Part shown: positions 9,322-24,937 of the stretch, one piece after another | Position numbering within the stretch: position 1 is the stretch's first letter | How the letters are laid out: each line of letters starts with the position of its first letter | From: Prolixibacteraceae bacterium | GTDB lineage: Bacteria > Bacteroidota > Bacteroidia > Bacteroidales > Prolixibacteraceae | Reading direction: 5' to 3' | DNA length: 44,687 nt | Assembly: GCA_029265875.1 (NCBI GenBank) | Contig: JAJUGS010000002.1 | Coordinates: 1 to 44,687, forward strand | Program-made: the position numbers and the translations under genes | Notes under the pieces: generated by a model | The model's database searches: none | The model's input: the letters and a program-made list of their open reading frames with translations, nothing else | What the model was told of the DNA's origin: nothing

Positions 9322-10662
9322 TTAATTGGCGATAACCAGGCGCGTTGAATAATTAACCGCATCTCCTTTGAAATGAAGAAAATAGGTGCCTGCAGCAACC
9401 TGGTCAAAAACCAGTTGTTCCGGCAGTATGTGATTGACTTCAATATTTTTTACTGTGCTTCCGAAAATATTTTTTAGCTGAACCTGCCGAATCGAATTGC
9501 TTTCAATATTTTGGTATTCAACATTTAAAACATTGGAAAACATTGGATTCGGAAATATTTTAATTGCGGATTCCTGGTTTAATTCAATGGTTGAAGAAGA
9601 TGTGGCCAAAAATGAAACTGCTTCCTTTGCGTTATCCTTAAATTGCTGAACGATGTATTTCCCGTGTTCGGTGAGGTCGGCATCAGATGTATAACCTTTT
9701 GAATAGTTGGCAACTATGTCGTAATAAGTTTCGTTGGGGTTGCTGTTCCAGGCCCAGAACAGCCATCCAATTCCTTGCAGATTACATTCGGATATGATTT
9801 TTTTCGGGTCGTATAAGGTAAAATTGTCAGGCGCGCCGGTCCATCCAAATTCCCCCACAATCACAGGTATTTTTTTATCTTTAAACTTCTGCAGATAATC
9901 TTCCACATAATATTGCCAAACTTGTTTGTTGCTTTCTTTTGTCATCCACAGTCCATAAAAATGGATGGAAAAAAGGATGTTTTTTTCAGGGTCGAAATCG
10001 AGAAGTTCCTGCGCGTAGTTGATTAAAGTTGTTGGGTTTTGTCCACAACCTCCTGCATCAATCAGAATCGTGTTTTTAATCCCGGCAGTTCGCATGGCTG
10101 TAATTGCCTTTTTATACCCATCGCGGTACAGCGAATTGGTTGGCCCCCACTCGTTGGCAACGTTTACTATCAGGTATTTTTCGTAATCTTTGCAAAGCTG
10201 AACAAGGTTAGCAGAGCACCAGTAGTCAACCACCCGTTTCAGGTTTTTGTTTTCTGCATCGGTTTCGTAGCCATTGCCACAGGTAACATCATGGAATTCA
10301 AGAATGGGTATAAGCTTATTATCCACACAGGCTTTCACGCAGGCTTTTTGCCTGGTGAAATTGCTTTGCCACGACCATGAATTGCTGGCATCGCTGGTAA
10401 CTGAAACGATTCGGGCACAGTTGGCCCCGGCTTTTTTCATGTCGGGGAAAGATTTCATGGCGTTGGCTTCCGACTGCCAGAAAACCGCAGTATTTGCACC
10501 CATCGGTATAAATTCGGCGCCACTCGCATCGTACAATTTTCCGTCGAGCACAAAAAATCCTTTTCCGGTATTGTACCCGGGCCGGGCTACCTGTGCATTA
10601 ACCGCGATGCAATGCACGAAAAAAATAGCAAAAAGGGGCAACAGTAATTTAATTCTGTTCAT
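9322..10662 (-). CDS. GH5-like endo-beta-mannanase/cellulase with T9SS C-terminal sorting domain
   Basis: Signal peptide; GH-A catalytic motifs VANEWGP and PVIVGEFGWTG; C-terminal IKIFPNPMFSNVLNVEYQN...AAGTYFLHFKGDAVNYSTRLVIAN is a Por-secretion tail. Confidence 0.87.
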   Translation of the reverse strand: MNRIKLLLPLFAIFFVHCIAVNAQVARPGYNTGKGFFVLDGKLYDASGAEFIPMGANTAVFWQSEANAMKSFPDMKKAGANCARIVSVTSDASNSWSWQSNFTRQKACVKACVDNKLIPILEFHDVTCGNGYETDAENKNLKRVVDYWCSANLVQLCKDYEKYLIVNVANEWGPTNSLYRDGYKKAITAMRTAGIKNTILIDAGGCGQNPTTLINYAQELLDFDPEKNILFSIHFYGLWMTKESNKQVWQYYVEDYLQKFKDKKIPVIVGEFGWTGAPDNFTLYDPKKIISECNLQGIGWLFWAWNSNPNETYYDIVANYSKGYTSDADLTEHGKYIVQQFKDNAKEAVSFLATSSSTIELNQESAIKIFPNPMFSNVLNVEYQNIESNSIRQVQLKNIFGSTVKNIEVNHILPEQLVFDQVAAGTYFLHFKGDAVNYSTRLVIAN

Positions 10663-12131: not shown

Positions 12132-13481
12132 TTAGATGTTTTGTAACCGTTTTTTAACCGCTTTTTCAATAAACCCCGCGTAGTAAAACGGCAGACTTAA
12201 TAATTGATAGCTTTTCCCGTTAGGCAGTTCAATGGTGTCTGTTCGTTCGAAATTGTTCCAGAACCTGACGGCAATTTTGGCAGACGAATTTTCCATAAAA
12301 AGGTGGAGCGATTTCAGTTTCGAATTATCGCCCGATTTTACCTCAACCGGAATCAGGCCAAATTCAGCCGAATTTATGAGGAAATCCAGTTCAGCCTGCG
12401 AATTTTTTGCTTCGCGTACCCAAAAATGTCTTTCTTCAAGAAACCTGAATGATGCTCCGAGTATCTCCTGTGCTACAATGTGTTCGGCTACTTTACCCCG
12501 CCAGCTATCCGAAATATTTTCGTGGTTGAAAATATCATGCTGAATTCCGGAGGCGTAATTCACCAGGCCGGTATCAAACCAAATCAGTTTTGGTTTCTTT
12601 TTCAGGTCTTTTGTAATGGGCAGTTTGGTTTCCACCGTGGGATAAACGAGTTCGAGCAACAGCGCTTTTTCAAGCACCCGCAACGATTCTGCCATTTCGC
12701 GGCTTTTGTACTTCGAGTGGGCAAACCTTTCGAAAGTAATGCGTTGTCCGGCAAACTCCCAGCCGCTTTTAATAATTTGTCTGATTGGGTTTATCAATGC
12801 ATCTTTCGGGGCATATTTTTCCACATCGTCGCGGTAACCGGTGAGCAGGGTTTCATATACTTCGCCAAGGGCAACGATGTCTTTGTGCTGGGCATAATTT
12901 TCAATCACTTCGGGCATTCCGCCAATTAAAGTAAACAGCTTGAAAAGTTCAATCATCCTGTTGTGCATCAATTCATTTACTGCTGCTTCGTTTAGCTTTT
13001 CCAGCAACGGCAGTTCTCCCATAGCACCCAGAAATTCGGAAAAAGTACAGGGGCGCAGCGCCAGGTATTCCACCCTTCCAACCGGGAAAGATATTTTTTT
13101 ATTCAACAGTGTTTCAAGCAGCGAACCGGCCGCAATTACATACAATTCGGGCATTTCCTCGAAGAAATAGCGGAGCAGTTTAATGGCCACCGGCGATGTC
13201 TGAATTTCGTCGATAAATAGCAAAACCTTTCCCTGTGGCTTTGTTAGTCGTTTTGATACTAAAATTGAATCAAAGATTTCCTTCACCTGCAACTCTTTCT
13301 CAAAAAAGAAAGCATCGGCTTTTTTGTCGAGGTTCAGGTGTAAAAAAAGGTCAAATTCTTTTCCAAATTCCTGAACCAGCGAAGTCTTTCCAACCTGCCG
13401 TGCACCGCGGATAACCAATGGTTTCCGGTTCTCTTTCCGGGCCCATTCGCGAAGAACATTGATGGCATTTCGCTGAAACAT
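12132..13481 (-). CDS. AAA+ ATPase with C-terminal DUF4143 domain, copy 1
   Basis: Walker A IRGARQVGKTSL, Walker B VLLFIDEIQ, LRPCTFSEFLGA, C-terminal AELDFLI...LIPVEVKSG. Confidence 0.95.
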   Translation of the reverse strand: MFQRNAINVLREWARKENRKPLVIRGARQVGKTSLVQEFGKEFDLFLHLNLDKKADAFFFEKELQVKEIFDSILVSKRLTKPQGKVLLFIDEIQTSPVAIKLLRYFFEEMPELYVIAAGSLLETLLNKKISFPVGRVEYLALRPCTFSEFLGAMGELPLLEKLNEAAVNELMHNRMIELFKLFTLIGGMPEVIENYAQHKDIVALGEVYETLLTGYRDDVEKYAPKDALINPIRQIIKSGWEFAGQRITFERFAHSKYKSREMAESLRVLEKALLLELVYPTVETKLPITKDLKKKPKLIWFDTGLVNYASGIQHDIFNHENISDSWRGKVAEHIVAQEILGASFRFLEERHFWVREAKNSQAELDFLINSAEFGLIPVEVKSGDNSKLKSLHLFMENSSAKIAVRFWNNFERTDTIELPNGKSYQLLSLPFYYAGFIEKAVKKRLQNI

Positions 13482-13504: not shown

Positions 13505-13512
13505 CAAAAATA
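13505..13512 (-). promoter_or_regulatory. Candidate promoter -7 element for the DUF4143 ATPase
   Basis: Minus-strand TATTTTTG (TAnnTTTG), 23 bp from the ATG; a TTTG inside the nearest repeat unit (13531-13534) lies 18 bp upstream of it. Confidence 0.6.
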
Positions 13513-13522
13513 TACTATTCTG

Positions 13523-13640
13523 CACAAATCCAAAGTAAAAATTTCGAAATATTTACATAAATCCAAAGTAAAAATTCAAATATTCTGCACAAATCCAAAG
13601 TAAGATTAACCAAAATCTGACACAAATCCAAAGTAAAAAC
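13523..13640. repeat. Four-copy repeat array (CAYAAATCCAAAGTAA), periods 33/32/33 bp
   Basis: Copies begin at 13523, 13556, 13588 and 13621; array ends immediately next to the GH97 stop codon (13641). Confidence 0.93.
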
Positions 13641-18812: not shown

Positions 18813-18867
18813 TGGTCGAGTATTTATTTTTACATGTTTAATTTTCAATTTTCTTTTTTGCTGCACC

Positions 18868-19175
18868 CTTTTTGGCCCCTTTATGGCCTCTTTCAATATT
18901 TTGTATAATTCACATTTTAAGAATATTAGAAATGATTATTGGTCGAATCGTGACCAAATTGCTCCCGTTGTGACCCAATTATCAATTGGGTTGAGCCCTT
19001 TGTGAGACGTTTTAAAAGGAGTTTGGGTGATTGGCGCATTTGTGTCCCACTCAAAAATCGATTTGACCCCATTGTGGCCCCTTTCAGGAAAAGATTAAAC
19101 ACTGTTAATAAGTAAATTACGATTCATATAAATTCATTAAACTATCTGTTTTGACCCCTTTTTGACCCCTTTTTC
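18868..19175 (-). repeat. Degenerate GGGGTCAAA / GGGGCCAAA / GGGTCACAA motif cluster at and downstream of the AlbA_2 gene 3' end
   Basis: Minus strand: AAAAAGGGGTCAAAAAGGGGTCAAAA (inside the CDS end), then AAAGGGGCCACAATGGGGTCAAA, GGGACACAAA, AAAGGGCTCAA, GGGTCACAACGGGAGCAA and AAAGGGGCCAAAAAGGGTGCA. Confidence 0.55.
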
Positions 19176-22982: not shown

Positions 22983-23002
22983 AAAGTTATTAAAATAACT
23001 TT
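22983..23002. repeat. Perfect inverted repeat AAAGTTATT-aa-AATAACTTT
   Basis: 9-bp arms with 2-bp centre, directly next to the repeat array upstream of ATPase copy 2. Confidence 0.85.
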
Positions 23003-23084
23003 CGTTGATAAAAGTGTAGTCAAATAGCAATTATTCGTTGATAAAAGTGTAGTCAAATAGCAATTATTCGTTGATAAAAGTGTA
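23001..23084. repeat. Tandem 33-bp repeat (TTCGTTGATAAAAGTGTAGTCAAATAGCAATTA), two full copies plus an 18-bp partial copy
   Basis: Units begin at 23001, 23034 and 23067; the partial third copy runs into the candidate promoter. Confidence 0.95.
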
Positions 23085-23090
23085 TTTTTG
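23083..23090 (+). promoter_or_regulatory. Candidate -7 element for the second DUF4143 ATPase
   Basis: TATTTTTG matches TAnnTTTG, starting at the end of the third repeat unit. Confidence 0.55.
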
Positions 23091-23141: not shown

Positions 23142-24425
23142 ATGATACGGAATTGCTTAAATGCGCTCTTAAAATGGAAGAACAGCGAATACAGAAAGCC
23201 GCTGATTCTGAGAGGAGCCAGGCAAACAGGGAAAACCTGGTTACTGAAAGAGTTCGGAAGGACGGCATTTAATAAAACTGTGTATGTGAATTTCGAAGAA
23301 ACCCCATCGCTTCAGGGATTATTTCAGGCAGATTTTGATATCGCCAGAATCGTTACAACCATTTCAATTTTTAGCAATACCACAATAGATGCGAAGGATA
23401 CTTTGATTGTTTTAGACGAAATTCAGGCAGCAGAAAAGGGATTAACCTGTTTGAAATATTTTAGTGAAAATGCACCGGAATATTACGTGGTTGCAGCAGG
23501 TTCGTTACTCGGAATGGGTTTGCACAGTAACATTTCTTTTCCTGTCGGGAAAGTAAATTTTCTTGACCTCCGGCCCATGTCATTTACTGAATTTCTGAGT
23601 GCACTTGGCGAGGAAAGTCTGGCAAATGCAATTGAAAAACAGGATTGGGACGTTTTGCCAATATTTCATTCAAAACTCTCAGAATACCTGAAATACTATT
23701 TATTTACCGGAGGAATGCCCGAAGTGGTTAAAATTTTTGCAGAAACACGGAACTGGCAACTCGTAAGGCAGACCCAGAATCAGATTCTGCATTCCTACGA
23801 AGGCGATTTCTCAAAACATGCACCCGTTGAAATTGTACCGCGCATCAGGATGGTTTGGCAAAGCATCCCGGCTCAATTGGCAAAGGAGAATAAAAAGTTT
23901 GTTTTTGGAGTCATCAGGGAAGGAGCACGTGCAAAAGATTTTGAACTGGCAATTCAATGGCTGCTCGATAGTGGTTTGCTGCTGAAAAGTCATCGGGTTT
24001 CGAAACCAGGATTACCTTTAATTGCCTATCAGGATTTATCTGTTTATAAACTCTTTTTGCATGATGTCGGACTTTTAGGAGCAATGGCGGGATTAAATGC
24101 ACACACACTGATTGAAGGTGACAAAGTTTTTACAGAATTTAAAGGTGCACTGGCTGAACAGTTTGTAATGCAGCAACTCAGTTTGAAAAGTGAACGTTTT
24201 ATTGGCTACTGGACAAACGAGCGGAGTACTTCTGAAGTTGATTTTGTTGTTCAGGATGAAGGAGATATTATTCCGATTGAAGTGAAATCGGGTGAAAATA
24301 CAAAAGCAAAAAGCTTCAGGCAATTTTATGAAAAGTATCAGCCTTCGAAAGCGATTCGTACTTCAATGCTTCCTTATAAACAAGAGGATTGGATGACAAA
24401 TATTCCTTTGTACGGGATTCAATAG
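23142..24425 (+). CDS. AAA+ ATPase with C-terminal DUF4143 domain, copy 2
   Basis: Walker A LRGARQTGKTWL, Walker B TLIVLDEIQ, LRPMSFTEFLSALG, C-terminal SEVDFVV...IIPIEVKSGENTKAKSFRQF. Confidence 0.95.
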   Translation: MIRNCLNALLKWKNSEYRKPLILRGARQTGKTWLLKEFGRTAFNKTVYVNFEETPSLQGLFQADFDIARIVTTISIFSNTTIDAKDTLIVLDEIQAAEKGLTCLKYFSENAPEYYVVAAGSLLGMGLHSNISFPVGKVNFLDLRPMSFTEFLSALGEESLANAIEKQDWDVLPIFHSKLSEYLKYYLFTGGMPEVVKIFAETRNWQLVRQTQNQILHSYEGDFSKHAPVEIVPRIRMVWQSIPAQLAKENKKFVFGVIREGARAKDFELAIQWLLDSGLLLKSHRVSKPGLPLIAYQDLSVYKLFLHDVGLLGAMAGLNAHTLIEGDKVFTEFKGALAEQFVMQQLSLKSERFIGYWTNERSTSEVDFVVQDEGDIIPIEVKSGENTKAKSFRQFYEKYQPSKAIRTSMLPYKQEDWMTNIPLYGIQ

Positions 24426-24440
24426 ATTTCTTAAATTTTA

Positions 24441-24911
24441 CTATTCCGCCAAATCACAAACCTCTGCACCGGTAACTTTTATCAAATCATCGGGGTTGAT
24501 TTTGAACTGTAAACCGCGCTGGCCGGCACTCACAAAAATGGTATCGAACAAAATACAGGTTTCGTGGATGAATGTGGGGAATTGTTTTTTCATCCCGATG
24601 GGCGAGCAACCTCCGCGGATGTAACCGGTTAACGGGAGCAGCTCTTTTTGCTGAACCATCGCACAGTTTTTATTCCCCGAGAATTTGGCTGCCTTTTTCA
24701 AATCCACTTCGGCATTTCCGGGAATCACACAAACAAAAACACCGGTTTTATCGCCCCGCAAAACCAGGGTTTTAAAAATCTGCTCCACATCCTGCCCGAT
24801 TTTTTTTGCCAGTGAAACCGCACTCAGGTCGCTTTCATCCACTTCGTATTCTGTCAGTTCGTAATTCACCGATTGGGCATCTAACAGGCGGGCAGCGTTG
24901 GTTTTTTTCAT
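24441..24911 (-). CDS. ybaK: YbaK/EbsC-type Cys-tRNA(Pro) deacylase
   Basis: MKKTNAARLLDAQSVNYELTEYEV...FKTLVLRGDKTGVFVCVIPGNAEVDLKKAAK...GYIRGGCSPIGMKKQFPTFI; start trimmed from 24932. Confidence 0.9.
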   Translation of the reverse strand: MKKTNAARLLDAQSVNYELTEYEVDESDLSAVSLAKKIGQDVEQIFKTLVLRGDKTGVFVCVIPGNAEVDLKKAAKFSGNKNCAMVQQKELLPLTGYIRGGCSPIGMKKQFPTFIHETCILFDTIFVSAGQRGLQFKINPDDLIKVTGAEVCDLAE

Positions 24912-24937
24912 TGTATAGGAGCAGGTCAACAATTCAA

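Follow-up and report, generated by a model that had tools for sequence, protein, structure and literature searches.

Repeat arrays in fixed register with the promoters of DUF4143 ATPase (PDC-S01) genes: probable private operators in a phage-defence candidate family

Introduction

Plasmid iterons are direct repeats at near-helical spacing that are read by a winged-helix Rep protein, which also represses its own gene. The controllers of toxin-antitoxin and restriction-modification systems are likewise autorepressed, through a private operator lying over their own promoter, and the Orc1/Cdc6 initiators, which contain an AAA+ domain and a winged helix, bind origin DNA. Here, we describe the upstream regions of two ATPase genes of a Prolixibacteraceae bacterium (Bacteroidota), located in a window of 44,687 nucleotides (the whole stretch of DNA analysed; contig JAJUGS010000002.1 of assembly GCA_029265875.1, positions 1 to 44,687 of the forward strand). 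Unlike the iteron/Rep pair, these loci combine AAA+ and nuclease-like domains, an array locked to a −7/−10 box and no replicon. In contrast to the toxin-antitoxin and restriction-modification controllers, a single protein is here presumed to serve as both regulator and effector, with an operator made up of an array of 2–6 copies that have a variable half. Orc1/Cdc6 proteins share the AAA+ plus winged-helix organization with the window protein, but they have no nuclease domain and their repeats lie at origins, whereas those of the window genes form a promoter array.

PDC-S01 is described as a fusion of an ATPase with a PD-(D/E)xK domain and as the defence system that ranks fourth in frequency across prokaryotes, with experimental validation pending for most PDCs (PMC12988326). 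The literature naming PDC-S01, as far as its text was accessible, makes no mention of an array, operator or autoregulation upstream of the gene, and a literature search that reached few subscription papers returned no paper on repeats upstream of genes for DUF4143 or PDC-S01 proteins. The array is a general and apparently undescribed feature of these genes.

Results and Discussion

The window ATPases and their domains

The copy-2 ATPase gene (23142–24425, plus strand; 427 aa) and the copy-1 ATPase gene (12132–13481, minus strand; 449 aa) both encode AAA_14 and DUF4143 domains and both matched the PADLOC profile PDC-S01 (E-values of 1.8e-178 and 4.2e-173, respectively), which spanned residues 1–426 of 427 in copy 2 and 1–444 of 449 in copy 1. 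A total of 24 DUF4143 matches was found in the window genome, 23 of them above the Pfam cut-off, and all 10 paralogues tested matched PDC-S01 with E-values that were weaker than those of the window pair, yet still clear. By these profile matches, the gene belongs to PDC-S01, a single-gene phage-defence candidate. The copy-2 gene ends (24425) 15 nt from the stop of a convergent YbaK-like gene (24441–24932), as the first-pass annotation of this DNA had stated.

In the AlphaFold2 model of the copy-2 protein (mean pLDDT 92), an AAA+ domain is followed by a helical linker, then by a winged-helix-like region and finally by a PD-(D/E)xK-like domain. The AAA+ domain (residues 1–155; 23142–23606, plus strand) carries the Walker A (G25..G30-K31-T32) and Walker B (D92-E93) motifs, and residues G25, G30, K31, T32, D92 and E93 were conserved at 99–100%. 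Conservation was similarly high (97–100%) for E339, D367, E380 and K382 of the PD-(D/E)xK-like domain (residues 328–425; 24123–24416, plus strand; E380-x-K382), a fold assignment for PDC-S01 that is also made in PMC12988326. Between the two, the model predicts a winged helix at residues ~229–306 (23826–24059, plus strand) with ORC/Cdc6-like matches, in which the recognition helix would begin near R263-A264-K265. The best structural matches in the PDB were the archaeal AAA+ ATPases SSO1545 (2fna) and PAB2304 (2qen), with TM-scores of 0.45–0.56 at 12–16% sequence identity, followed by ORC/Cdc6 proteins, with a global TM-score of ~0.3 for the Orc1/Cdc6 initiators (2qby).

Arrays upstream of the two window genes

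Upstream of the copy-2 gene, the 33-bp unit TTCGTTGATAAAAGTGTAGTCAAATAGCAATTA at 23001–23033 is identical to 23034–23066, and a third unit matches over 18 nt (23067–23084) before continuing with TTTTTG, thereby forming TATTTTTG at 23083–23090. Tandem Repeats Finder (TRF) delimited the array at 23001–23084 (plus strand; period 33, 2.5 copies, 100% match), in agreement with the exact repeat at 23001 and 23034 that had been reported on first reading, and the repeat scored above every shuffle tested for this array. Three putative operator copies on the plus strand were assigned on the basis of the same bipartite site in homologues: CTTTCGTTGATAAAAGTGTA at 22999–23018 with its core AAAAGTGTA at 23010–23018, and TATTCGTTGATAAAAGTGTA at both 23032–23051 (core 23043–23051) and 23065–23084 (core 23076–23084). 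The final TA of the third copy is common to the operator and to TATTTTTG (23083–23090, plus strand), which we take to be a −7 box of the Bacteroidota promoter type TAnnTTTG and which starts at +7 from the core start, a register conserved in homologues. The third copy had been called partial; it does run into TATTTTTG at 23083, but the conserved site TTCGTTGATAAAAGTGTA is complete and the spacer alone is replaced by the −7 box, so that this copy is, to judge from its letters, functionally whole.

The copy-1 array (13523–13639, minus strand) consists of four ACTTTGGATTTRTG sites at 13621–13634, 13588–13601, 13556–13569 and 13523–13536, spaced by 33, 32 and 33 bp, and, as for copy 2, it ends at a −7 box TATTTTTG (13505–13512, minus strand). 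The two arrays are unrelated in their letters and alike in design: each has 8 private bp and a subfamily core, a 33-bp period, and its last copy at the promoter. This agrees with the first reading, which noted different letters with the same period, place and final promoter. The other tandem repeats detected by TRF in the window were located at 9442–9491 (period 24), 18866–18893 (period 11) and 19149–19174 (period 11).

Occurrence and spacing of the arrays

Homologues were collected from the order, class and phylum of the window organism and from named genomes belonging to many groups; plasmids and phage scaffolds supplied others. The phylum-level search added few. Upstream regions were evaluated with a motif-free repeat test, in which the cut-off required a score above all 100 dinucleotide shuffles. 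This cut-off was passed by 75 of the 148 upstreams of the copy-2 family, about half of them thus falling below it, and by 21 of the 34 of the copy-1 family. Among those passing, the best lag was 32–33 bp (56) or 64–66 bp (15) in 71 of 75 copy-2-family upstreams and 32–33 bp (16) or 64–66 bp (5) in 21 of 21 copy-1-family upstreams, i.e., 92 of 96 with both families pooled. A broad distribution of periods had been named as evidence against the first reading; the periods were instead sharply peaked near 33 bp.

As controls, 192 further upstreams of these loci were evaluated (block shuffle, 100-shuffle cut-off), and only seven passed. Three of these passed at a lag of 33 and belonged to neighbouring genes with an AAA_14-like P-loop ATPase N-terminus; excluding them, four of 189 controls (2%) passed, none at 32–33 bp. 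An earlier control set had seemed contaminated at lag 33, which was traced to divergent genes sharing the ATPase upstream and to neighbouring ATPases. Second P-loop ATPase genes with their own upstream repeat at lag 33 were observed near three homologues (L238, L259 and L271).

The arrays recur in several phyla: of 46 strong cases found in relatives across many phyla, 45 had lags of 32–33 or 64–66 bp, and plasmid copies in Glaesserella, Acinetobacter, Vibrio and Collinsella were spaced by 32–33 bp. Homologue arrays hold 2–6 copies of the site, with six or more at most. A wider PDC-S01 set comprised 53 upstreams, taken from five relatives as well as the window genome. Only 22 of them had a repeat significant at the 0.05 level, of which 20 were spaced by 22–23, 32–33, 40–42 or 65 bp, close to multiples of the helical turn. 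Two window-genome paralogues (L001 and L013) had a spacing of 22 bp, two helical turns, instead of 33, and a relative (L398) carried nearly the same repeated motif as L013. For three other paralogues of this genome, the best upstream repeat lay at 40–42 bp and reached significance in L019 and L020 but not in L021. One homologue (L090) had seven copies in two alternating versions of the site, with alternating lags of 32 and 33.

Register on the promoter

The motif TAnnTTTG was present in 124 of 154 arrays, compared to 8% of shuffles. Relative to the core, it started at +7 in 63 sites, at +39/+40 in 67 and at −26 in 23, positions that are equal modulo one period. A box resembling TATAAT stood at +7 (5) or +40 (7) in relatives from the clostridia and elsewhere. 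Because the array recurs with different promoter types at the same offsets, it follows the gene rather than the promoter type of one host. Of the 124 arrays that have a −7 box, 33 had every detected copy upstream of the core promoter and 10 had every detected copy downstream of it; degenerate copies may have been missed in these counts. In the operator of an autorepressor, one would look for a repeated site that overlaps the core promoter and keeps a constant register with it, as found here.

Anatomy and privacy of the site

The copy-2-family site consists of ~8 variable bases followed by the core AAAARTGTR, and the spacers between sites contain little information. Since extraction of the copy-2 sites favoured a spacing of 32–33 bp, the spacing figures were taken from the motif-free and core-only analyses. 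When the core was the sole criterion for picking sites, the variable 8 bp matched at 0.69 among copies of one array and at 0.31 between different arrays, with a permutation maximum of 0.36. In the copy-1 family, with the core TTTRTKACAAA, the variable half matched at 0.65 within and 0.34 between arrays. An inverted core was found near the site in 32 of 187 arrays; a dyad model of the site was nevertheless rejected, as symmetry was weak over the whole set.

Across the 4.26-Mb window genome, each of the two window cores occurred exactly only in its own array (three sites for copy 2, four for copy 1), and near matches were approximately at the level of a reversed-pattern control, which argues against a regulon. 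These comparisons support the view that each ATPase has its own cognate array.

Covariation of protein and array

The first reading had gone further and suggested that each ATPase co-evolves with its cognate array, naming absence of protein/array covariation as the counter-evidence. Array distance was in fact correlated with protein distance (Mantel r = 0.24, exceeding each of 2000 permutations); for the variable half, the match was ~0.28 between proteins of less than 45% identity and climbed to 0.83 at identities above 80%. Such tracking is expected from the linkage of gene and promoter alone. At the level of single residues, arginine at position 265, the start of the predicted recognition helix, went with G at core base +8. 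This pair was among the best of thousands in the training set, and the prediction was recorded before most held-out loci were fetched and before any was analysed. Held-out genes gave raw counts of 16 of 18 vs. 6 of 33 for the predicted pairing (Fisher 1e-6); as related genes are counted repeatedly in these numbers, phylogenetically independent contrasts give the fairer figure, which was 4:0 (p = 0.125) for the held-out genes and 11:2 (p = 0.02) overall. The pair thus passed the raw held-out test but not the phylogenetically strict one. A scan of residue–base pairs by mutual information, partial distance correlations and independent pairs gave no pair that was significant after permutation, and the top covarying protein columns were not concentrated in the winged helix. 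The notion of a gene-specific array is thus supported; residue-level covariation, as strict co-evolution would require, is only suggestive, and direct reading of the array by its ATPase is likely but unproven.

Proposed role of the array

We consider it probable that the array is a multi-site operator of its own gene, bound by the ATPase through the winged helix and conferring private autorepression. The ATPase is put forward as the binder because it combines an AAA+ domain with a winged helix, as in the archaeal ATPases and Orc1/Cdc6. It would contact its own array by way of the predicted winged helix, probably in an oligomeric form that follows one face of the double helix; 33 bp correspond to about three helical turns. 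With the promoter-nearest copy overlapping the −7/−10 element, occupancy would exclude RNA polymerase and the gene would repress itself. The core would be recognised throughout the subfamily, with ~8 bp private to each gene, which would allow many paralogues per genome without mutual silencing. We infer that repression would be lifted by some stress, e.g., phage infection.

The main rival to private autorepression is a parking or sensing platform, on which the ATPase would be held inactive (or assembled in active form) until a change in occupancy, e.g., upon phage takeover, triggers the nuclease, repression being a by-product. Multiple near-helical sites, up to six or more, exceed the needs of simple promoter occlusion, and such a role would also suit the conservation of catalytic residues in the PD-(D/E)xK-like domain as well as in the ATPase, and the standing of the family as a phage-defence candidate. 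The fixed register on the −7/−10 box, however, points first to transcription control, and we regard the platform as rather unlikely. Also unlikely, in our estimation, is a self-addressing scheme in which each ATPase-nuclease would recognise a private address repeated in its own promoter and occupancy would serve as the sensor, so that dozens of paralogues could share one cell without cross-talk and lost occupancy would both induce the gene and arm the nuclease.

Control by a separate host transcription factor would account for the fixed subfamily core, which resembles a regulator consensus, but it is very unlikely given that the variable half changes from gene to gene, that both window cores lack an exact match elsewhere in the genome, and that plasmids, a phage-labelled scaffold and unrelated phyla all show the same design; one factor per gene would be required in each genome. 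The direct repeats at near-helical spacing, together with the AAA+ plus winged-helix architecture and the presence of Orc1/Cdc6 among the structural matches, recall origin-like iterons read by an Orc1/Cdc6- or Rep-like initiator, the locus then being or deriving from a replicon. This we hold to be highly improbable, as the genes stand singly between unrelated genes, with about 24 in the window genome, the array is locked to the promoter, and an initiator would have no use for a nuclease-like domain. Neutral tandem repetition by slippage merits next to no credence: copy number does differ between close relatives (4 versus 5 in L329 vs. L317), but this reading is already contradicted by the fixed 32–33-bp spacing, the conservation of the core at 40–50% protein identity and the promoter register, as well as by the low frequency of repeats in unrelated upstreams (2%) and the uninformative spacers.

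PDC-S01 is reported to be common, and a cis element carried by the gene itself offers a handle on binding, quiescence, the coexistence of copies and the diversification of DNA specificity. Because hundreds of genomes display both the constant and the variable half of the site, the way in which the winged helix reads DNA can be tested by experiment.

Genomic context of the homologues

A comparison with empty sites was attempted and abandoned, as the M3 peptidase and YbaK neighbours were not adjacent in the relatives examined and insertion boundaries could not be drawn. Several DUF4143 ATPases lay close together on one contig of a relative (L073, L184, L208 and L171; G072 contig C5). Two homologues (L374 and L381), each with two sites 66 bp apart, were located beside HipA-type toxin-antitoxin genes on ~98–104-kb Bacteroides plasmids common in gut Bacteroides. 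A further homologue (L377), at 55% identity and with a 33-bp array, was found on the unannotated scaffold MT836768, which was deposited as phage (by label only).
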